A stretch of DNA of 64,000 nt. It comes from Roseibacillus persicicus. GTDB taxonomy: Bacteria > Verrucomicrobiota > Verrucomicrobiia > Verrucomicrobiales > Akkermansiaceae. Position 1 is the stretch's first letter. Each line of letters opens with the position of its first letter. Below the pieces are notes generated by a model. It ran no database searches and was not told the DNA's origin. It saw only the letters and a program-made list of their open reading frames with translations. The stretch spans positions 166,600 to 230,599 of the forward strand of contig NZ_BMXI01000010.1 of NCBI RefSeq assembly GCF_014651675.1, given 5' to 3'. The translations under genes and the position numbers were made by a program. This document shows positions 4,859 to 44,604 of this stretch, piece after piece.

Positions 4859-5472
4859 AAAAGAAAGCAGTGAGAGTGGGCATCGGAGGACCGGTAGGTT
4901 CGGGGAAATCGACCCTTTGTCTGGAGCTTTGCCGTCGCTATGGCGAAAGCAAGAACATGGCGGTGATCACCAATGATATCTACACTCGAGAGGATGCGCG
5001 CATGTTGATTCGGGAGGGTGCCTTGCCCGAGGAACGAATCGTCGGAGTGGAGACCGGGGGCTGTCCGCACACTGCCATTCGCGATGATATTTCCATGAAC
5101 CTCGATGCGGTGGAAGAGCTGGAAAAGCGACTTAAGGGATTGGAGTTGATTTTGATTGAAAGCGGAGGGGACAACCTGACCGCGACCTTTTCGCCCGAGT
5201 TGGTGGACATCTTCATCTACGTGATTGATGTCACCGAGGGCGATGACATTCCGCGCAAGGGTGGGCCGGCCATCGCAGGTTCCGATTTGCTCCTGGTCAA
5301 CAAGGTGACGCTCGCACCCTATGTGGGGGCCAATGTCGAGCAGATGAAGGCAGACTGTCTATCCAAGCGAGGCGAACGGCCCTTTATTTTTTCCGATCTG
5401 AAAGCGGGCGAGGGGAAGGAAGCGCTCTTCAACTGGTTCGATCGCGAGGTTCTCTTTACTGATGTCGGGTAG
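4855..5472 (+). CDS. ureG: Urease accessory GTPase UreG
   Basis: SIMIBI-class GTPase of 205 residues that powers nickel insertion. Visible motifs: P-loop [16 protein letters not shown], the nickel-binding CPH in [14 protein letters not shown], the Walker-B-like ESGGDNL, and [14 protein letters not shown]. One oddity is that the guanine-specificity motif, almost always NKTDLAPYVGA, reads [11 protein letters not shown] here (bases 5299-5331), so the Asp that contacts guanine is a Thr. The reading is unambiguous in the DNA given. The gene overlaps ureF by 4 bases and ureD by 11, so it is cotranslated with both. Confidence 0.95.
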
Positions 5473-6280
5473 TATCCAGAGCGCGATGGACTTGCGCTTT
5501 CGTCACGACGAGTCGCGTGACGTCACCATCTTGGCCGAACGGCGGGCAGGGGGATTGTGCCATGTGAGCAAGCCGTATTGGAATGGGCGGACCCTCGCCC
5601 TGCATTTGGTAAATCCCACGGCGGGGATTTTCGGAGGGGATGAATTGCAGATGCGGATCGAGGTCGAAAAGAACGCGCGGGCGACGCTGAGTTGCCCGAG
5701 CGCGAACCGCTTTCACGCGATGAGAAATGCCTCCGCACGCATCGAGCAGGACTTTGTCGTGGGCGAAGGGGCGTGGTTGGACTTTCGGCCCGAGTGGGTC
5801 ATCCCGCAGCAGGGTAGCGAGGTGGAGTTGAACACGCGCATCGAGGTGGCGGAGGGTGGACGGTTGGTCTTCGGCGACCTGCTGGCCCCGGGTCGCGTCG
5901 CGCATGGCGAGGGGCTGGACTTCCGGTTTTTCGGCACTCGCTTCGAGCTCCGGGTGGGTGGTCGTCTGGTGGTGCAAGAGCGGATGGAACTCGAGCCTTC
6001 TCGAGGAGCGTGGCCTTTCGAAGTTTCCGGTTGGAAGCATTGCTTCTATGGTGCTTGGTGGCTGGTCAATTGCCCTTTGGGAGCGGAAGAAATTGCTCGC
6101 ATCGAAAGCCTACAAAATGAGGGCCTGAAAATCGGGGTGAGTGAACTGGATGACCAGGTGATGGTGATACGCTTGTTGGCGGCACGGAGCTTGCTGCTGA
6201 AGACGTCCAGCGAAGCTTTGCGTGAAGAGCTTGCCTTGCTTTTTCCATTGCTTTCGAGGGAGGAACGGTTGTTAACTTGA
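5462..6280 (+). CDS. ureD: Urease accessory protein UreD (UreH)
   Basis: Scaffold protein of 272 residues that binds apo-urease and recruits UreF and UreG. It shows the UreD landmarks: a beta-strand-rich core, [12 protein letters not shown] (equivalent to the HPPGGVVGGD block), [13 protein letters not shown] and the Arg-Leu-rich C-terminal helix ([11 protein letters not shown]). ureD usually comes first in urease operons; placing it after ureG, as here, is also seen in several phyla. It overlaps ureG by 11 bases and ends 7 bases before the small membrane protein gene. Confidence 0.92.
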
Positions 6281-6287
6281 ACCACAA

Positions 6288-6488
6288 ATGAATAAAATGT
6301 TTTCAAAAATCAGCGTCGGAGTGATGAGTTTGCAAATGGCCTTGGTAACTGTAGCCAGCGCCCACCCTGGACCTGCAGGTCACACCCATGATGACGAGTG
6401 GCCTTTTGGGGCTGTTGCTTTATTGGGTGTTGCGATGGGGGTTGTCGTCGTGTTCGGCGTTCGATTGGCCATGAGTAAGAAAGGGTAA
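6288..6488 (+). CDS. Small His-rich secreted membrane protein, last gene of the urease operon
   Basis: 66 residues: a signal peptide ending in VASA, a periplasmic start HPGPAGHTHDDEWPFG with three His and two Asp, then one hydrophobic helix (about residues 42-61) and a positively charged end (MSKKG). The first few mature residues recall the metal-binding HPG-type start of HupE/UreJ nickel permeases, but the protein has only one helix after cleavage and so cannot be a permease alone. It lies 7 bases after ureD and just before the terminator, so it is part of the operon. A role in metal binding at the envelope is inference. An alternative ATG at 6297 would remove three residues. Confidence 0.7.
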   Translation: MNKMFSKISVGVMSLQMALVTVASAHPGPAGHTHDDEWPFGAVALLGVAMGVVVVFGVRLAMSKKG

Positions 6489-6505
6489 GGTCGCTTCGAC
6501 CTTTT
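6487..6505 (+). terminator. Hairpin terminator of the urease operon
   Basis: Perfect 7-bp stem AAGGTCG/CGACCTT with a 3-base loop followed by TT, immediately overlapping the stop codon of the small membrane protein. The T-run is short, so it is probably a modest terminator. Confidence 0.6.
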
Positions 6506-6604
6506 CTGGATGTGAGCACCACCGCTTGGAGGGCGGGGTAGACTGTCCCTCGTCGGTTGGCGACGAGTGATCCAGCCAATGGTTCCAAACCTGTCGCATC
6601 CAAG

Positions 6605-7570
6605 ATGAAAAAGAATATTTCCGCGCAAATCCTGTTCCGAGCGGTGATCGGGTTCGCAGGGTTCGCCTCCTTGCTCGCTGCCGACGAGGCAAAGCCGCAA
6701 CCCCTTTGGAAAAAGGGCATTTACCACGAGTCGGTTCCGGAGCCGACGAACGAGAACGTGCGTTATGGCCCCGAGCATCGCAACGTCCTGGATTTCTGGA
6801 AAGCTCCTTCCGATAAGCCGACCCCGGTCGTGATCTCGATTCATGGCGGGGGCTGGAACGGGGGAGACAAGGTGCAGTTGCATAGCTTCGTCGATTCCGC
6901 CAAGCTCTTGGAATCGGGGATCTCAGTAGCCGCGATCAACTATCGTTTGATCAAGCACTGCCGCGACCTGGACCCTCCGGTGCAAGGACCGCTTTCAGAT
7001 GCGGCGCGCGCGGTGCAGTTCATTCGCAGTCGGGCGGAGGACTGGAATATCGACAAGACCCGCATCGCGGCCACCGGTGGTTCGGCGGGGGCCTGCACCA
7101 GTCTCTGGCTGGCCTATCACGATGACCTCGCGGATCCGACTGCCCGGGACCCGGTCGCCCGGGAGTCCACCCGCTTGATGTGTGTGGCCGCCATCCGCGC
7201 ACAAACCACTCTCGATCCCAAGCAGATGAAAAGCTGGATTCCAAACAGCAAGTATGGCGCGCACGCCTTTGGTCTGGAGGGTTTCGAAAAGTTTCTCGCC
7301 GAGCGGGACCGGTTGCTTCCGGTTATCAATCAGTATTCCCCGGTCGCGCTTTTGGATGCGGGGGACGCCGATACCTATTTGTTCTATCCCATTGTTCCCC
7401 CGGCGGGGAAAGTGGAAAGGGACCCAACCCACTCGGCAGTCTTTGGGGTTGAGCTCCAGAAACACTGTTTGGAAAAAGGAGTTCCTTGCGAGCTGGTCTA
7501 CCCCGGCGCTCCCGAGGTCAGGCACGAAGACGCAACCGCATATCTCATCGACCGGCTCAAATCGAAGTGA
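6605..7570 (+). CDS. Secreted alpha/beta-hydrolase (esterase/lipase-like)
   Basis: 321 residues with a signal peptide (MKKNISAQILFRAV...LLAADEA). The fold is a BD-FAE/Abhydrolase_3-like esterase: HGGGW oxyanion-hole motif near residue 80, nucleophile serine in GGSAGA, and a C-terminal VRHEDATAYL carrying the likely catalytic His. This pattern is common in Verrucomicrobiota and Planctomycetota proteins acting on acylated sugars; the substrate is unknown. The ATG at 6605 is preferred over an upstream ATG at 6557 because it starts the signal peptide. The gene stands alone after the urease terminator and converges on the sulfatase at 10602-7606. Confidence 0.75.
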   Translation: MKKNISAQILFRAVIGFAGFASLLAADEAKPQPLWKKGIYHESVPEPTNENVRYGPEHRNVLDFWKAPSDKPTPVVISIHGGGWNGGDKVQLHSFVDSAKLLESGISVAAINYRLIKHCRDLDPPVQGPLSDAARAVQFIRSRAEDWNIDKTRIAATGGSAGACTSLWLAYHDDLADPTARDPVARESTRLMCVAAIRAQTTLDPKQMKSWIPNSKYGAHAFGLEGFEKFLAERDRLLPVINQYSPVALLDAGDADTYLFYPIVPPAGKVERDPTHSAVFGVELQKHCLEKGVPCELVYPGAPEVRHEDATAYLIDRLKSK

Positions 7571-33884: not shown

Positions 33885-35411
33885 CTACATCACTTTGGAC
33901 GAATCGAGAGAATCTTCCACCGCACGGAACTCTTCCAAGGCGACTTCGAGGGACGCCACGATGTCGGCGGCGAGTTCGGCGGGTGGGGGGAGGTTCTCGG
34001 TGTCTTCGAGGGATTCGTCTTTCAGCCAAAAGATGTCGAGGTTGGCTTTGTCGCGGGCCACGATTTCGTCGTAGCTGAACTTCTTGAAGCGGTCGCTCTC
34101 CTTGCGCTTGGCGAGGTTTTTCGGATTGTAGACTTTGATGAAGTCGGTGAGGTCCTTGGTAGCCAGCGGGTTGGTCTTGAGGGTGAAGTGTTGGTTGGTG
34201 CGCAGGTCGTAGATCCAGAGGTCTTTTGTCCACGGTGTTTCGCTCGCTTCTTTGCGTTCAAAGAAGAGGACGTTGGCCTTCACCCCTTGGGCGTAGAAGA
34301 TGCCGGTGGGGAGGCGCAGGATGGTGTGGACGTTGCAGCGTTTCAGGAGTTCGCGGCGGATGGTTTCGCCGGCCCCACCTTCGAAGAGGACGTTATCAGG
34401 AAGGACGACCGCCGCGCTGCCGCCGACTTTGAGCTCGCTGACGATGTGTTGTAGGAAGTTGAGCTGCTTGTTGCTGGTGGTGGCCCAGAACTGGTCGCGC
34501 TCGTATTCCTGCTTCTCGGTGGAGATTTTGCCATCATCGCCCACGATGGTGTAGCCGCCTTTTTTGCCAAAGGGTGGGTTGGCGAGGATGAGGTCGAACT
34601 TGGTGCCGCTCGGTTGAGCAAGGGCGTCGGCTTCGGTGATGGGGGAGTTGAAAAAAGTAGCCGAGGCATCTTGCCTCTGATCTTCGGAACTGAGGCTAGA
34701 AGCCTCCGCCACTCTACCTCCTCCGATGCCGTGCAGGTAGAGATTCATCGCACACAGACTGACCACCCCGGGCACGATATCGTTGCCACGCAGGGCGGTG
34801 GTCTTGAGATGTCTCATCTCCGGTTTGCTCAGCTTGTTGTGCTTGGTGATGTAGTCGTGGGCCGCCAGGAGGAAGCCCCCAGTGCCGCAGGCGGGGTCGC
34901 CGATGATTTGGCCGGGGGCGGGCTGCATCACGTCCACGATGGCGCGGATGAGCGGACGCGGGGTGAAGTATTGGCCCGCACCTTTGTCGGAGGAGCTTGC
35001 AGTCTTCTCTAACAACCCTTCATAGATGGCTCCCTTGATATCGACATCCATCCCAGACCAATCCTCGTCCGCAATCATCTTGATCACGCGCTGCAGGTCG
35101 GAGGGGTTGGAGATTTTGTTTTGGGCCTTGCGGAAGATGATGCCGACGAGGCCGGGTGCCTTGCCAAGGTTTTCGAGGGTGTGGCGGTAGTGGATTTCGA
35201 GCTTGTCGCCGGTCTCGGCAGCCAGTTTGGACCAGCGATAGTCTTCGGGGATGGGGTTGTCGTAACCTAGCTCGGTCATCTCATCGGCCAGCTTGAGAAA
35301 GAGGAGGTAGGTGATCTGCTCCACGTAGTCGCCGTAACCGACCCCCGCGTTCTTGAGGACGTGGGCGTAGTTCCAGACTTTGGAGACGATGGAGGCGGAG
35401 TTATCGGTCAT
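33885..35411 (-). CDS. hsdM: Type I restriction-modification system, methyltransferase subunit
   Basis: 508 residues from the ATG at 35411 (MTDNSASIVSKVWNYAHVLK). N-terminal HsdM helical domain, then an N6-adenine methylase with AdoMet motif DPACGTGGFLL and catalytic NPPFG. It methylates adenine in the target set by HsdS. Between LYLHGIGG and the normally adjacent SPI segment lies a 24-residue insertion, GRVAEASSLSSEDQRQDASA then TFFN, encoded by a palindromic repeat at 34657-34717 and absent from ordinary HsdM. The leader has a 12-bp inverted repeat (35433-35479). A broken 5' copy of the same gene lies at 37050-37242. Gene order (M far from R and S) is unusual. Confidence 0.93.
   Translation of the reverse strand: MTDNSASIVSKVWNYAHVLKNAGVGYGDYVEQITYLLFLKLADEMTELGYDNPIPEDYRWSKLAAETGDKLEIHYRHTLENLGKAPGLVGIIFRKAQNKISNPSDLQRVIKMIADEDWSGMDVDIKGAIYEGLLEKTASSSDKGAGQYFTPRPLIRAIVDVMQPAPGQIIGDPACGTGGFLLAAHDYITKHNKLSKPEMRHLKTTALRGNDIVPGVVSLCAMNLYLHGIGGGRVAEASSLSSEDQRQDASATFFNSPITEADALAQPSGTKFDLILANPPFGKKGGYTIVGDDGKISTEKQEYERDQFWATTSNKQLNFLQHIVSELKVGGSAAVVLPDNVLFEGGAGETIRRELLKRCNVHTILRLPTGIFYAQGVKANVLFFERKEASETPWTKDLWIYDLRTNQHFTLKTNPLATKDLTDFIKVYNPKNLAKRKESDRFKKFSYDEIVARDKANLDIFWLKDESLEDTENLPPPAELAADIVASLEVALEEFRAVEDSLDSSKVM
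34657..34717. repeat. REP/BIME-like palindromic repeat inside hsdM
   Basis: 61 bp running from GTAG to CTAC with two internal stem-loops (GAGGC-ATCTT-GCCTC and GAGGC-TAGAA-GCCTC), i.e. two REP units head to head. It is read in frame in hsdM (minus strand) as RVAEASSLSSEDQRQDASAT. Related copies lie in hsdR at 41834-41895 and 42476-42537, in the same orientation and the same reading frame. Confidence 0.8.
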
Positions 35412-35432
35412 AATTGAAAGAGAAGGTGGTTT

Positions 35433-35479
35433 TATAAGTGGCCATAAGTGCGTTTTTTTGGGAGATGTGGCCACTTATA
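35433..35479. promoter_or_regulatory. 47-bp inverted-repeat leader element of hsdM
   Basis: Perfect 12-bp arms TATAAGTGGCCA (35433-35444) and TGGCCACTTATA (35468-35479), 23-base spacer, with a third TAAGTG at 35445-35450. It sits between the ATPase stop (35484) and the hsdM ATG (35411). A near-identical element of exactly the same length precedes the ATPase gene. It may be an operator or a leader stem-loop controlling translation. Confidence 0.6.
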
Positions 35480-39599: not shown

Positions 39600-40976
39600 T
39601 CAAAGTTTTCCGGAGAAGGCGGTGGCGAGGGTGGATTGGCGGAGGCGGGTGGCGCGGGTGAGTTGGCGGTCGAGTTCGGCTTCGAGGTGGTCGATGGCGG
39701 TGGTTCGGGCTTCGACTTCGGCGACGATTTGATGTTGTTCGGGGAGGGGTGGAAGTGGGAGAGCCAAGGATTCCACATCGCCCACGCGGAGGTGTTGAAC
39801 TCCGACTCCGACTTGCTTTTCGCCATATTGAGATTGGAAATTGTGTGAGCGGATCACCGTGAGGAGATAGGACGGTAAGAGCAGATCATGGAAAGTGCGA
39901 AAGAGCATCATTCGCTGCCCCATGCATAAGCGTGTGTTTTCAGGTATAATTGCAGCCTCTCCTGCTGGCGCCTCTCTCGTGAACAGAATATCCCCAGGTT
40001 CTGGAGTGCAACGTTGAGACCAATGGGCTGCTGTCTCTTTGTTCACAAACTTCATCTTAGGCCAGGCCAACTTTCCGTTTCGGACATTTGTGGTTCGAAT
40101 CAGCGGGATTCCTGAATTCTCGTATGGCGGCGTCTTGTTGTGGCAGTCTACGACAAATTGGCAACTCGTCAGGAGGCTCGTGAATTTCCAACTCGGAGGA
40201 GTAGTCCAATTCGGAGGTGTCGTGAATTTGTGCCGTTTGTGCTTCGATACATGGCGTTTCACTTCCGAGTTCTCGCTTTCAGCTCTAAAGAGTGCAGCGC
40301 GTGTCTCTGAGATCCGATTGATCAACTCTTCCGCCGGTTCGGTGTCGGGGTGTTGTTCGCGCCAGTCTTGGGTGAGTTGGCCGGTGACGGCGGCGGCGAG
40401 GACGGATTGGCGGTAGCGTTGGAGTTGGGCTTTGGCGTGGCGCAAGGCGGCGACGCCGGCGTCGAGCCGCGAAAAGAGTTCCTCAATCCGCGCCACGATG
40501 CGGCGTTGTTCGGGGAGGGGTGGTAGAAGCAGCGGGACGGGTTTAAAGTTCCGTGACGAGATTCCGGTGACTGTTGTGCCGGTTCCTCGACCTGAAATCC
40601 GTCCCTGAAACTCTGGGGACATGATCTGGTACTTGAGAAACCTTGGGTGAAGTTCGTCGTGGTCTGTACGCAAAACCATAACGCGCTGTGCCAAGCAGAA
40701 CTTCTGATCCGGAACGTCGGCAACATGCCCGAGCGGAGCTTCCGTCGTGAAGAGCAGATCTCCGACCTTCGGAATTCCACGCGTCATGTATTGCTCGTAG
40801 GTGTCCTCGGTTACGTAGCGCAACTTCTCCCAAACGATTTTCCCGTCGCGGACGTTCGCGGAACGAAGATGGGGAATGCCCGTCTCGGAATACGGTGGGG
40901 TGCGGCCACGATAGTCGATGATGATCAAGGCATCGGCTACCGTAGATCGTTTCCAGCCTTTAGGAAGTTCACTCAT
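39600..40976 (-). CDS. hsdS: Type I restriction-modification system, specificity subunit
   Basis: 458 residues with the classic two-TRD layout: TRD1 (1-150), central conserved helix (LLLPPLPEQRRIVARIEELF, then LDAGVAALRHAKAQLQRYRQ), TRD2 (about 250-400), distal conserved helix (LALPLPPLPEQHQIVAEVEA). The two halves repeat the same motif near their N-termini (SGIPLIRTTNVRNGK versus TGIPHLRSANVRDGK). It sets the bipartite DNA target for HsdM and HsdR. The start overlaps the stop of a 30-residue ORF that links it to hsdR. Target sequence not predictable from here. Confidence 0.92.
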   Translation of the reverse strand: MSELPKGWKRSTVADALIIIDYRGRTPPYSETGIPHLRSANVRDGKIVWEKLRYVTEDTYEQYMTRGIPKVGDLLFTTEAPLGHVADVPDQKFCLAQRVMVLRTDHDELHPRFLKYQIMSPEFQGRISGRGTGTTVTGISSRNFKPVPLLLPPLPEQRRIVARIEELFSRLDAGVAALRHAKAQLQRYRQSVLAAAVTGQLTQDWREQHPDTEPAEELINRISETRAALFRAESENSEVKRHVSKHKRHKFTTPPNWTTPPSWKFTSLLTSCQFVVDCHNKTPPYENSGIPLIRTTNVRNGKLAWPKMKFVNKETAAHWSQRCTPEPGDILFTREAPAGEAAIIPENTRLCMGQRMMLFRTFHDLLLPSYLLTVIRSHNFQSQYGEKQVGVGVQHLRVGDVESLALPLPPLPEQHQIVAEVEARTTAIDHLEAELDRQLTRATRLRQSTLATAFSGKL

Positions 40977-41065
40977 GCCGCTAACACCTCGTTAACTTCT
41001 TTCCTCCTACGCTCTTCGATCTTCGGCGGACAAGCAATGATTTGAAATGGAAGGTTGATTGTCAT
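40973..41065 (-). CDS. 30-residue ORF bridging hsdR and hsdS
   Basis: ATG at 41065 overlaps the hsdR stop by one base (TGATG) and its TGA overlaps the hsdS ATG by four (ATGA). The peptide is MTINLPFQIIACPPKIEERR then RKEVNEVLAA. It has a GGAGG-like purine run near its end (base 41000 region on the minus strand) that could serve the hsdS start. No family recognised. It may be a real micro-protein, a remnant of a larger gene, or a device for coupling translation of hsdS to hsdR. Confidence 0.5.
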   Translation of the reverse strand: MTINLPFQIIACPPKIEERRRKEVNEVLAA

Positions 41066-44000
41066 CAGGCGACTAGGACTTCATTGAGTTCTTCGATAAG
41101 GGGTTTTGGATCTTGGCCAAAGACGCGTTTGGCGACGGCGAGGGGGACGCCTTCATCGGAGTCGACGCTTTGCCAGGCTTCGAGGTAGTCGCTCTGGTCG
41201 TCGGTGGCGAAGGCTCCGTTGAGGGCGATGTAATCCCGGATTACGGAAAGCCATTTGATTTGGCTTTCCGTAAACCGGGGAGTTGTGAGTGGTGAATTTT
41301 GAGTGGTGACTTCTGAACGAGCGGCTTCGCCCGGGGTGGGGTTTTGTTGCTGGGTGAGCCAGGCTTGGAAGCGTTGTTCGACGAGTTCGGGGAAGGGGGC
41401 GAGTGGGGTGGTCGCGGGATCGACGGTGTGGCGAACAAGGGTGATGAGATTGGTGAGGGTCTTGACGGGGTTGCGGGTGAGCGGGCGTTTTTCGAGGTGC
41501 TCGTAGGCGGACCAGACTTCGGCGGGCGCGATGTGGTAGGGCGGCCGGGCGACGGCATCGGCGAGGGCCTTGAGCTCTTCGTAGACGAGGTGGCGCTTGG
41601 CGTGGGGCTTGTTGTAGAGGATTTGCAGAGCGGTGATTTCGTCTTGGTTATCGTCGAGGAAGGTCTTCCACGAGGTGACCAACTGGCGAGCTTTTTCCTC
41701 GTCGTAGCCTGCGGAAATGACTTCGTCGCCGCTGAGGTGGTCAATGGTGACCTCGCGGTCGCGGCGCTTTTTCTCCAAGAGGTCGCGGTAGGCGGGATTG
41801 CTGGCTACCGGAGCGACTGCTTGGTTAGCGAGAGTAGCTGCTGCGTCCCGCTGCAGATCTTCCCAACGGGGGCTGAGGCAAGATGCCTCAGCTACTTTGT
41901 GGGCCCGGATGTATTCGCGGAATTTGTTCAGGCTGGCTTCGGAGCGCACGATGTGGTCCCAAGACTCCTTTTGCCAAACGGTGGGAGCGGTGGCGAGTTC
42001 CTGCGCAATCGGTAGCTTGAGAAGCTCCTTGGCGGTGAAACTTTTCCAAGAATGAAGAATTTCGCTCAGGGAGTGGTCCCCCTGCGGAGCGACGAGAATG
42101 TGCACGTGGTTGGCGGCGACGACGAACTCGTCGAGCTGATAGCGATCGCCATCGAAGTGGGTGATGGCATTGCACACGAGTTGATTGGCGGCTGCGTCCT
42201 TGAGAATCATGGAGCCGTAGCCGAGGTCGAGCCATTGCTGCAGGCGTTGCGGGAAGCGCTCGTGATACTCGGCCTTTTGTTCGGCGGTGTGGGGTTCTGG
42301 ATTCTGTTTGAGCCAGAGCTCTTTTTCGCTGGCGAAGATCTTGAGTTTTTCCTGTGGAAGAGAGTCCGCGAGTCGGAAGGTGACAAAGTAGATGACCCCG
42401 TCCTGATACCAATGAGGGAGAGAGGCTCCTTGGGTTTTGATGGTCTCGGCTTCTTGGTTGAAGAAGTTGAAGGTTGTGGCTGCTTCTTGTTGGAGTTTTT
42501 CTGCTTCGGGGGAACTGAGGCGAGACGCCTCAGCTACTTTCTCGATAGTATCGGGGTCGGTGGCTTGCAAGAGATGGGAGGCGAGTTGCTTGAGGGAGAG
42601 GCCGCCGGTGGCTTGCAATTCCCCCTTGTCGGAATCGCTGAGGGAGCGGTCGAGTCGAGCCAGACGGTTGGCAAGGCTGGTGAGGGTGTCTTCGTCGTGC
42701 AGGCCGAGGGCGACGCTTTGCAAGAGCTTGTCGAAGGGGACGGTGGGCTTGCGCTCGAGGGGGCGGGAGTCGGTCTTGTCGGACTCGGTGACGCCGACGG
42801 CATCGACGAGGACGAAGCGGGTCTTGCTGCCGGCATCGGGGGTGACGATGGCGAGGTCGGTGGCGTCGATGGTGCGGGTGCCGCGGCCTTTCATCTGCTC
42901 GAAGTAGAGCTGGGAGCGAACGTCGCGCAGAAAGAGAAGGCACTCGAGGGGCTTGATGTCGGTGCCGGTGGCAATCATGTCGACGGTGACCGCGATGCGG
43001 AACTCGGGTGCGGTGCGGAAGGCCTTGATGATGTCTTCGGGCTTGCCGCCGGCCTTGTAGGTGACCTTTTTGCAGAAGTCATTGCCCTTGCCGAACTCCT
43101 CGCGAACAAGGTTGACGATGTCTTCGGCATGCTCGTCGGTCTTGGCGAAGATGAGAGTCTTGGGCACCCAGTCGCCACTGCGGCCGGGGAAGAGGTCGGT
43201 GAAGAGTTTTTCCCGAAAGGTGCGAATGACGGTGCGAATCTGGTCGGGAACAACGACAGAGCGGTCGAGCTGGGTCTTGGCGATGGTTTGTTCCTCGTCT
43301 TGGATAGCCCAGCGCTTTTCGCGGGTGAGGCGATCGCGCTTCTGGTAGTCAAAGCCGGCATCGAGGGTGGTGCCTTCTTCGGAGATTTTGGTTTTGATGC
43401 GATAGATATCGTAGCCGACGTTGACGCCATCGGCGACGGCCTGGACGTGGGGGTATTCGGTGACGAGATTGCGGTCGAAGAAGCCGAGCGTGGCCTTGGA
43501 GGGGGTGGCGGTGAGACCGATGAGGAAGGCGTCGAAGTAGTCGAGGACTTGCCGCCAGAGATTGTAAATGGAGCGGTGGCATTCGTCGATGATCACGAAG
43601 TCGAAGGTCTCGATCGGGATGCGTGGATTGTAGGTGACGGGAAGAGTAGCAGAGCCATCTAGGCTTTGATCAGCTAAAGAGCTTTGGCTCTGATCTTTGG
43701 AGGAAAACTGCGGCGGGACGCCACAGCCACTATTGAACTCGTAGCCTGAAATCTCGTCGGCGTCTTCGTCGAGTTCGGTTCCCTTGAGTTGTGAGAAGAG
43801 GCGCTGAATGGTGGAGACGGTGACTTTGCAGACGGGATCAATGCCGCCGGGACCAAGCATCTGGACGTTGTAGAGGTCGGTGAACTTGCGGCCGTCGTCG
43901 GGGGTGGTGAATTGCTGAAATTCGTTGATGGTCTGGCGGCCAAGGTTGCCACGGTCGACTAGGAAGAGAATGCGTTGGGCGCCGGCGTGCTTGATGAGAC

Positions 44001-44604
44001 GATAAGCCTGCGTGACGGCGGTGTAGGTCTTGCCGGAGCCGGTGGCCATCTGCAGGAGGGCGCGCGGACGGTTGTCGGCGAGGGATTTTTCGAGACCCGT
44101 GATGGCGGAGACTTGGCAATCGCGCAGGGGAGCGATGACGAGAGGGTGGTTCGCGGGCAGAGTTTGCAGTCGCTCGCGGAGGGTGTCGGGTTGTTGGACG
44201 AGGGCGAGCAGGTGCTCGGGGGTGTGAAAGGCGAAGACGGAACGGGAACGAGAGTCGGGATCGCGCTGGTCGCGGAAATTGGTTTCGACGCCAGTGGACT
44301 CGTAAGTGAAGGGAAGAGGATCGGCCCAGCGCTGGGGAATCCACTTCCTGGCGTGAGAATAGCGGTTCGATTGTTCAGCGACGGAGCTGAGGGTGGTGCC
44401 TTCTTTCTTGGCCTCCACAATGCCGAGGGCTTTGCCGTCTACAAAGAGAATATAGTCAGCGGGACCGCCTTGAGACCGGACTTCGCGGATGGCGACGCCA
44501 CGGGAAGCTGAGAGGTTGAGTTGGGAGAGGTCCTGAATAGTCCAGCCAGCGGCGCTGAGTTGAGCGTCGATGTTCTCGCGGGCGATGGATTCGGGGGTCG
44601 GCAA
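41065..44604 (-). CDS. hsdR: Type I restriction enzyme R subunit with in-frame REP-flanked Y1 transposase insertion
   Basis: 1179 residues. N-terminal nuclease domain (GIVEAKKEGT), SF2 motor with ATGSGKT, DECHRS, LTATPSKAT and MKGRGTRT, and a C-terminal domain (VISAGYDEEKARQLVTSW...VWSAYEHLEKRP). It translocates and cuts unmethylated DNA together with HsdM and HsdS. Residues about 689-924 are foreign: two copies of VAEAS-LS(S/P) repeats enclosing a REP-associated tyrosine transposase (SLPHWYQDGVIYFVTFRLAD, HVH at 833-835, Tyr898 in REYIRAH). A shorter repeat-derived insert lies near residue 300-320 (SSKDQSQSSLADQSLDGSAT). No stop or frameshift interrupts it. The start is TTG at 44604, as an in-frame TAG lies two codons upstream and no ATG or GTG is available before the conserved N-terminus. 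Confidence 0.92.
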   Translation of the reverse strand: MPTPESIARENIDAQLSAAGWTIQDLSQLNLSASRGVAIREVRSQGGPADYILFVDGKALGIVEAKKEGTTLSSVAEQSNRYSHARKWIPQRWADPLPFTYESTGVETNFRDQRDPDSRSRSVFAFHTPEHLLALVQQPDTLRERLQTLPANHPLVIAPLRDCQVSAITGLEKSLADNRPRALLQMATGSGKTYTAVTQAYRLIKHAGAQRILFLVDRGNLGRQTINEFQQFTTPDDGRKFTDLYNVQMLGPGGIDPVCKVTVSTIQRLFSQLKGTELDEDADEISGYEFNSGCGVPPQFSSKDQSQSSLADQSLDGSATLPVTYNPRIPIETFDFVIIDECHRSIYNLWRQVLDYFDAFLIGLTATPSKATLGFFDRNLVTEYPHVQAVADGVNVGYDIYRIKTKISEEGTTLDAGFDYQKRDRLTREKRWAIQDEEQTIAKTQLDRSVVVPDQIRTVIRTFREKLFTDLFPGRSGDWVPKTLIFAKTDEHAEDIVNLVREEFGKGNDFCKKVTYKAGGKPEDIIKAFRTAPEFRIAVTVDMIATGTDIKPLECLLFLRDVRSQLYFEQMKGRGTRTIDATDLAIVTPDAGSKTRFVLVDAVGVTESDKTDSRPLERKPTVPFDKLLQSVALGLHDEDTLTSLANRLARLDRSLSDSDKGELQATGGLSLKQLASHLLQATDPDTIEKVAEASRLSSPEAEKLQQEAATTFNFFNQEAETIKTQGASLPHWYQDGVIYFVTFRLADSLPQEKLKIFASEKELWLKQNPEPHTAEQKAEYHERFPQRLQQWLDLGYGSMILKDAAANQLVCNAITHFDGDRYQLDEFVVAANHVHILVAPQGDHSLSEILHSWKSFTAKELLKLPIAQELATAPTVWQKESWDHIVRSEASLNKFREYIRAHKVAEASCLSPRWEDLQRDAAATLANQAVAPVASNPAYRDLLEKKRRDREVTIDHLSGDEVISAGYDEEKARQLVTSWKTFLDDNQDEITALQILYNKPHAKRHLVYEELKALADAVARPPYHIAPAEVWSAYEHLEKRPLTRNPVKTLTNLITLVRHTVDPATTPLAPFPELVEQRFQAWLTQQQNPTPGEAARSEVTTQNSPLTTPRFTESQIKWLSVIRDYIALNGAFATDDQSDYLEAWQSVDSDEGVPLAVAKRVFGQDPKPLIEELNEVLVA
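41834..41895. repeat. BIME-like repeat in hsdR, downstream flank of the transposase
   Basis: 62 bp from GTAG to CTAC with stem-loops GCTGC/GCTGC-like and CTGAGGC-AAGAT-GCCTCAG (41873-41891). In hsdR it encodes VAEASCLSPRWEDLQRDAAA, aligned codon for codon with the copies in hsdM and at 42476-42537. Confidence 0.8.
42476..42537. repeat. BIME-like repeat in hsdR, upstream flank of the transposase
   Basis: The half at 42515-42537 is a clean REP (CTGAGGC-GAGAC-GCCTCAG then CTAC); the other half (from 42476) is degenerate. It encodes VAEASRLSSPEAEKLQQEAA then TTFN, the same frame as the other two copies. Confidence 0.75.
43646..43706. repeat. Divergent REP-like repeat in the N-terminal half of hsdR
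   Basis: GTAGCAGAGCCATCTAGGCT followed by TTGATC and a second AAAGAGC...GCTCTGATC unit. On the hsdR strand it reads SSKDQSQSSLADQSLDGSAT, similar to the DQRQDASAT end of the hsdM copy and in the same frame. It lies between the YEFNSGCG segment and the helicase DECHRS motif, where HsdR proteins have variable length. More diverged than the others. Confidence 0.5.

Follow-up and report, generated by a model that had tools for sequence, protein, structure and literature searches.

How does a type I restriction enzyme come to carry a whole transposase domain in its reading frame, and does the domain serve the enzyme or itself? This question is raised by a stretch of 64,000 nucleotides from Roseibacillus persicicus (contig NZ_BMXI01000010.1, positions 166,600 to 230,599), hereafter the window, in which hsdR encodes a predicted transposase of the REP-associated tyrosine transposase (RAYT) type between two repetitive extragenic palindromes (REPs). 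The best reading is that of a protein-resident RAYT element, rather than of a restriction enzyme that has gained a nuclease. Sequence comparisons make it probable that this REP-flanked cassette belongs to a widespread class found at fixed positions within host genes (hsdR, leuS, metH, ispG and alaS), and that it is an intein-like selfish element, likely splicing-free, that is co-translated as an internal domain.

The fused hsdR gene and its inserted domain

A preliminary description of the window reported an uninterrupted HsdR frame of 1179 codons with an inserted domain. This was confirmed, as the frame at 41065-44604 (minus strand) has no internal stop and its parts follow the order HsdR nuclease and motor, REP palindrome, Y1/RAYT-type HUH domain, second REP and HsdR C-terminus. 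The features of the gene, including its REPs or REP doublets forming hairpins (REPINs), are as follows.

41065..44604, minus strand: hsdR-RAYT fused gene, 1179 amino acids (aa), TTG start (open reading frame and Pfam)
44254..44490, minus strand: HSDR_N nuclease domain, residues 39-117 (Pfam)
42874..44130, minus strand: helicase/translocase motor, residues 159-577 (Pfam)
42472..42540, minus strand: left REP/REPIN, residues 689-711, KVAEASRLS..LQQEAATT
41899..42423, minus strand: RAYT-type Y1 HUH domain, residues 728-902
42100..42108, minus strand: HVH motif, residues 833-835
41911..41913, minus strand: Tyr898, catalytic by homology (conservation among relatives)
41830..41898, minus strand: right REP/REPIN, residues 903-925, KVAEASCLS..LQRDAAATL, in the same orientation as the left
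41074..41685, minus strand: EcoEI_R_C, HsdR C-terminal domain, residues 974-1177 (Pfam)

The protein has the nuclease, motor and C-terminal domains of an HsdR, the R subunit of type I restriction systems; ResIII, in the ResIII/SWI2_SNF2 motor region, matched residues 159-369, and HsdR models of NCBIfam also match the fused protein. Because all three domains were matched, the HsdR with the cassette probably still restricts.

The inserted domain has the Y1 HUH fold, with the HxH motif and one catalytic tyrosine of Y1 HUH transposases (H833, H835 and Y898). HVH and Tyr898 lie where they had first been placed; V834, H835 and Y898 were invariant and H833 nearly so in an alignment of relatives with 52 rows, and H112, H114 and Y177, in the numbering of the RAYT domain, were invariant in 48 RAYT rows. 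Placement in the Y1/TnpA_REP family by profile models stood for one model and failed for the other. Y1_Tnp (PF01797) matched residues 821-901 with 27.2 bits, above its curated Pfam cut-off of 23, whereas REP_Tyr_transpos of NCBIfam gave 54.1 bits (1.5e-14), below its curated cut-off of 80; for this reason the domain is named RAYT-type, a divergent relative. The sibling domain in metH of the same genome reached 84.4 bits with the latter model, above that cut-off. RAYT (TnpA-REP) genes normally stand free, whereas the frame of this domain continues into hsdR at either end. The structure model of the full-length protein was moderate (predicted local distance difference test, pLDDT, 70.2) and its structural matches were mostly motors that told little about the inserted part, for which reason the domain was also folded by itself.

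Two repeats in the same orientation had been noted on either side of the domain, and both pattern matches and hairpins of single-stranded DNA (ssDNA) bear this out. The 26-nt REP copies at 41873-41898 and 42515-42540 match a pattern written from these copies, which found no match with up to three mismatches in 100 shuffles of the window. As ssDNA, each forms a 9-bp hairpin behind GTAG (z -7.3 and -5.9), followed by a weaker second arm encoding the LQRDAAAT or LQQEAATT part. The domain is thus flanked by GTAG-tagged REP hairpins, as is a RAYT (TnpA-REP) gene.

Could the fusion be an artefact of assembly or gene calling? Nothing was found in favour of this explanation, the likelihood of which we regard as negligible. 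For R. persicicus, the database lists a fusion with 98% identity across the protein (P0002), in a cluster whose longest contig has 5.53 Mb, which makes a local assembly join very unlikely. Furthermore, fusions also occur in genomes of one to four contigs (G047, G072, G081 and G097), and the reading frame is conserved, with a ratio of nonsynonymous to synonymous divergence (dN/dS) near 0.1 in the measured pairs, showing purifying selection on the RAYT domain.

Relatives of HsdR without the insert

The preliminary description had proposed a comparison with insertion-free homologues. A scan of genome contigs gave the best 80 named HsdR loci, of which more exist, and 77 of these were readable over the site in a frame of >800 aa (L191, L224 and L243, with no such frame, were left uncounted). 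In 75 of the 77, the linker between the DPD motif and NPxLRxLL had 33-58 residues and held no insert. It was long in only two, from metagenome-assembled genomes of Verrucomicrobiaceae (L183, 249 residues) and Akkermansiaceae (L184, 255 residues), compared with 263 in the window. An insert-free hsdR with a 48-residue linker also occurs within the host's taxonomic family (G097; L137/L174). Because relatives have a short variable linker at that site, the cassette, judging from these proteins, replaces or splits this linker. Short peptides (such as VGAGLKPAPT and VRPEPVEGQ) in the insert-free linkers of L185, L217, L227 and L252, from other phyla, resemble REP-coded ones, as if the HsdR linker were a general landing site.

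RAYT domains inside other host genes

When residues 640-960 were used as the query, the 120 listed of 768 matches comprised 90 HsdRs, 24 DNA methylases, one alanyl-tRNA synthetase (AlaRS), one PriA and four unassigned proteins (Pfam), an HsdR excess that is partly due to the query's own HsdR flanks. The window's own genome contains in-frame RAYT domains in metH and leuS as well, each gene being the sole match over the family cut-off. The leuS_bact model matched with 944 bits in pieces (next gene, 100 bits) and that of metH with 1476 bits in pieces, with breaks at model positions 360/367 and 1042/1046, respectively; this leuS meets a gap of Ns close to its end, and this metH is split in two frames, its homocysteine module ending in TAA approximately 500 nt upstream of the 1160-aa RAYT frame. 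A short frame starting around MELNELSHAVIGAAMEVHKILGPG lies between the two metH frames (L013, approximately 5100-6700).

RAYT matches were found in 88 of 117 genomes of the host's taxonomic family. Among the 150 matches listed from these genomes, which are the best-scoring part only, 51 lay in frames of at least 500 aa, 49 in frames of at least 800 aa and 95 in frames of <350 aa. Reading of all 51 frames of at least 500 aa identified 50 host fusions and one chance frame (L057). The fusions involved MetH (17), IspG (11), LeuRS (10), AlaRS (five), TPR/DUF5107 proteins (three), other HsdR subfamilies (two) and adenosine-deaminase-domain proteins (two). The chance open frames L057 and L074 (468 aa) were at first within a set of 55 rows and were later dropped, as was the partial duplicate L059 on the plus strand. 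As a control, the rve family in the same genomes had none of 125 matches in frames of at least 800 aa and three in frames of at least 500 aa, the longest being 722 aa. One MetH fusion (L097) carries its RAYT at a second, different site, and the in-frame RAYTs in the adenosine-deaminase-domain protein (L084 and L088) belong to two congeners of the window's genome.

The LeuRS-borne domain as the query matched 2051 long proteins (E <=0.001), the best 120 of which comprised 107 LeuRSs, five methylases, three DUF1156 proteins, two IspGs, one HsdR, one sulfatase and one unassigned protein. R. persicicus is named for both the HsdR (P0002) and the LeuRS (P0197) fusions, in clusters whose biggest contig has 5,528,883 bases, and some database names already join host and RayT. 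Catalytic residues are kept in nearly all fused RAYTs. A phylum-wide survey of 288 genomes gave seven rows in frames of at least 800 aa among the matches listed, in a list that is ranked by likeness to a free-RAYT model and was not used as a rate; the fused class is not the commonest among the top-scoring RAYTs of the phylum, which argues against easy generalisation. An IspG (P0137), an AlaRS (P0090) and an unassigned protein (P0027) contain two RAYT domains each, and the HsdR-borne RAYTs of P0035-P0039 and P0044 have a further REP-coded insert ahead of a VWQ(K/R)ES motif.

These hosts bear on a second proposal of the preliminary description, that the restriction motor has acquired an ssDNA-cleaving domain. 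The HUH domain would then have been recruited to serve the host enzyme, here in restriction, where it would nick or bind ssDNA behind the motor. The strong purifying selection on the RAYT, the persistent occupation of one HsdR site across distant lineages and the many fusions in restriction-modification enzymes (the 90 HsdRs and 24 methylases above) agree with such a role. However, LeuRS, MetH, IspG and AlaRS, which carry the same class of domain, have no common need for ssDNA cutting, nearly all readable named HsdRs do without it, part of the HsdR bias comes from the query, the palindromes match at the ends of most cassettes and cassettes are swapped independently of the host, as described below. 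Domestication is therefore not favoured, and we consider it quite unlikely.

Palindromes at the cassette ends and elsewhere in the genome

At 52 fused loci, the 170 nt to the left and right of the domain were compared in inverted orientation. The median score was 52, compared with 17 for ends of different loci (95th percentile, 34) and a 99th percentile of 23 in shuffles, and 46 of the 52 loci exceeded this 99th percentile, with matching palindromes at both ends. The palindromes agree within a locus and differ between loci; many have GTAG or GTGG, and others GGAG.

The REP of the window lies twice in hsdR, once in hsdM of the same locus and once elsewhere in the genome. The copy in hsdM, a RAYT-less REPIN of the same family as the hsdR REPs, stands shortly ahead of the NPPF methylase motif. 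A leuS-type REP occupies 11 places, among them three pairs of inverted copies spaced by 86-87 nt, two places in leuS and two that lie in frames of 871 and 1006 aa. Such a distribution is compatible with mobilisation in trans by resident RAYTs but is no proof of it. At the leuS site of G107 and G085, short gaps had raised the suspicion of RAYT-less REPINs, but their sequence was not recovered by pattern and no claim is made for them. The remaining features of the type I locus are as follows.

33885..35474, minus strand: hsdM of the same type I system
34656..34715, minus strand: RAYT-less in-frame REPIN in hsdM, RVAEASSLSSEDQRQDASAT, residues 254-273
39600..40976, minus strand: hsdS of the same type I system (domain match)
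43636..43734, minus strand: second, degenerate REP-like in-frame insert in hsdR, different from the cassette REPs, residues ~291-323, SGCGVPPQ..LDGSATLP, between motor motifs

The second hsdR insert includes a REP-like copy at 43703-43733, and the structure model has pLDDT <50 at residues 292-319. The part of hsdR encoding the C-terminus contains a 19-nt inverted repeat (41235-41279) with arms 95% complementary; the only Rfam match there, a sub-threshold one to mir-8512 (23.3 bits, gathering score 90), was taken as chance on an inverted repeat.

Sorting by host gene and exchange of cassettes

A tree was built from 120 RAYT domains, with HsdR near-copies and methylases beyond 14 left out and host labels assigned from simple sequence patterns (six rows, some of them HsdR, were unlabelled, 'x'). 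The host labels need 20 changes on this tree, compared with 82.9 in shuffles. The free RAYTs, 14 of 17, group in one clade, which also holds one HsdR-borne RAYT. Occupation is patchy even within the genus of the window, as leuS carries a RAYT in G000 and G011 but is uninterrupted in G024 and G034; the RAYTs of G000 and G011 differ by 49% and their hosts by 14%.

Cassette and host trees are in conflict at two sites according to approximately unbiased (AU) tests. In metH, the host tree places L096 with L101 and a grouping of L075 with L101 is rejected (p 0.0002), whereas the RAYT tree places L075 with L101 and a grouping of L096 with L101 is rejected (p 0.0025). L075/L101 is also one of the two pairs in which synonymous divergence of the RAYT is below that of the host, and a search for co-conversion around the metH insert found divergence to be slightly lower downstream. 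In hsdR, the hosts of P0023 and P0033 differ by 6% and their RAYTs by 41%, identity falling at the left REP and returning behind the right REP. The RAYT of P0033 groups with those of P0029-P0032, the hosts of which are rejected as one clade with P0033 (p 1.7e-6), and the RAYT data reject a grouping of P0033 with P0011-23. On these trees and breakpoints, cassettes are evidently exchanged between host lineages at one site, with breaks at the REP borders.

Several points weigh against a mobile element, and some of them favour a single old insertion per host gene that is vertically inherited and now immobile, its catalytic residues being retained to maintain REPs in trans. In 16 of 18 pairs, the RAYT has a higher synonymous divergence than the host; no recent transfer was seen in these pairs, and this higher value also flatters the dN/dS of the RAYT. 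RAYT and host distances are correlated in HsdR (Mantel r 0.77, 48 proteins), LeuRS (0.64) and MetH (0.54), which points to much vertical inheritance. The hosts of P0033 and P0011-23 are likewise rejected as an exclusive clade (p 0.0097), P0005, P0008 and P0032 nesting there; the groups for the AU tests were picked after the distances were seen; and the swaps could have arisen by ordinary homologous recombination spanning the cassette. The ends of the window's own cassette match weakly in inverted orientation (score 25) and better in direct orientation (45), its two REPs being direct repeats, and its REP has only four places in the genome (5.28 Mb, up to two mismatches), so this cassette may be inactive at present. 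The support consists of sequence comparisons. An old vertical insertion would also explain why RAYTs sort by host gene. However, it is strained already by the AU conflicts in metH and hsdR, and the Mantel r of 0.11 in IspG, the unlike leuS RAYTs in similar hosts and the empty sites within one genus stand against it as well, so that we regard it as unlikely.

Proposed scenario and comparison with known systems

Inteins and homing elements occupy fixed sites in conserved genes, form lineages sorted by site, are patchily distributed and have trees incongruent with those of their hosts. The RAYT cassettes resemble inteins in this behaviour, not in membership, being patchy and host-incongruent at fixed allelic sites. 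This distribution would also agree with removal of the insert once the gene is expressed, in the manner of an intein or a self-splicing intron. Yet the insert has no stop and keeps the reading frame of its two flanks, which would be needless for an intron. No intein/Hint splicing domain was found among the Pfam matches of the 1179 aa at E <=0.1, and no Rfam family of group I or II introns matched at E <=1 in positions 41000-43000 of the window. Such removal is highly improbable. Unlike inteins, the cassettes encode an HUH transposase instead of a homing endonuclease and would remain a permanent domain of the protein. TnpA of IS200/IS605 (2a6m and 2xma) is encoded by a free-standing gene with its own subterminal ends, unlike the window's domain, which lies inside a host frame.

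Considering the protein-resident RAYT element as the preferred reading, we infer mobility and activity of the cassette and propose the following scenario. The element would have entered beside a tetranucleotide of the GTAG/GTGG type through single-strand cleavage, as do TnpA-REP and IS200/IS605 enzymes; this step is suggested by the biochemistry of TnpA-REP, which cleaves ssDNA REPs in dependence on the GTAG motif (in the parts consulted of PMC8266576). It would survive only where the REPs and the RAYT read through and fall in a tolerant linker. The host promoter would then drive RAYT expression, and imprecise loss would break a useful gene, making the cassette hard to lose. The RAYT may remain active at the REPs of its own cassette, so that cassettes are replaced or moved within one allelic site, and may seed RAYT-less REPINs in trans, such as the hsdM REPIN of this locus. 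The suggestion in the preliminary description that an element entered hsdR and was tolerated because it codes through is thus supported, hsdR being one case of a widespread class. More tentatively, and with somewhat less than even confidence, we propose a new class of mobile elements, protein-resident homing transposons. These would be permanent co-translated domains of indispensable enzymes at fixed sites, for which splicing is unnecessary as the palindromes encode harmless linkers; the elements' own ssDNA nuclease would spread them to the same site of empty or differently occupied alleles and seed miniatures in neighbouring genes.

RAYT (TnpA-REP) genes with flanking REPs are known as REPtrons (PMC3733652; PMC8266576). 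The cassette shares with them the Y1 HUH fold, the HxH motif with a single tyrosine and GTAG-tagged palindromes on both sides; unlike REPtrons, which the cited passages describe as free-standing genes, the RAYT of the window has no stop codon of its own and lies as a domain within a host enzyme, resident at fixed sites. REPs inside open reading frames, including those of tRNA synthetases and DNA-repair genes, are in print, and Opitutus terrae (Verrucomicrobia) has the most intragenic GTAG repeats in that account (PMC3733652, in part). Rickettsia palindromic elements inside open reading frames are also in print (PMC10969869, in part). In both, as in the window, palindromes are in frame and translated within host proteins; these elements, as the cited passages describe them, are short and lack a transposase, whereas here a whole transposase is in frame. 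The literature searched contained no report of whole RAYTs that reside in frame as domains of host proteins.

A survey of the RAYT family excluded a small number of proteins of unexpected length, regarding them as fused genes or faulty annotations (PMC6006769, in part), a warning that proteins of this kind may be mis-annotated or discarded. With the protein-resident RAYT element, the question of how RAYTs endure although they do not visibly transpose themselves becomes open to testing. Since the LeuRS-borne query matched so many long proteins, a transposase may form one of the domains of translational, metabolic and defence enzymes in many bacteria. The finding would add to introns and inteins a third means by which selfish DNA can persist in essential genes, namely to be translated and tolerated.
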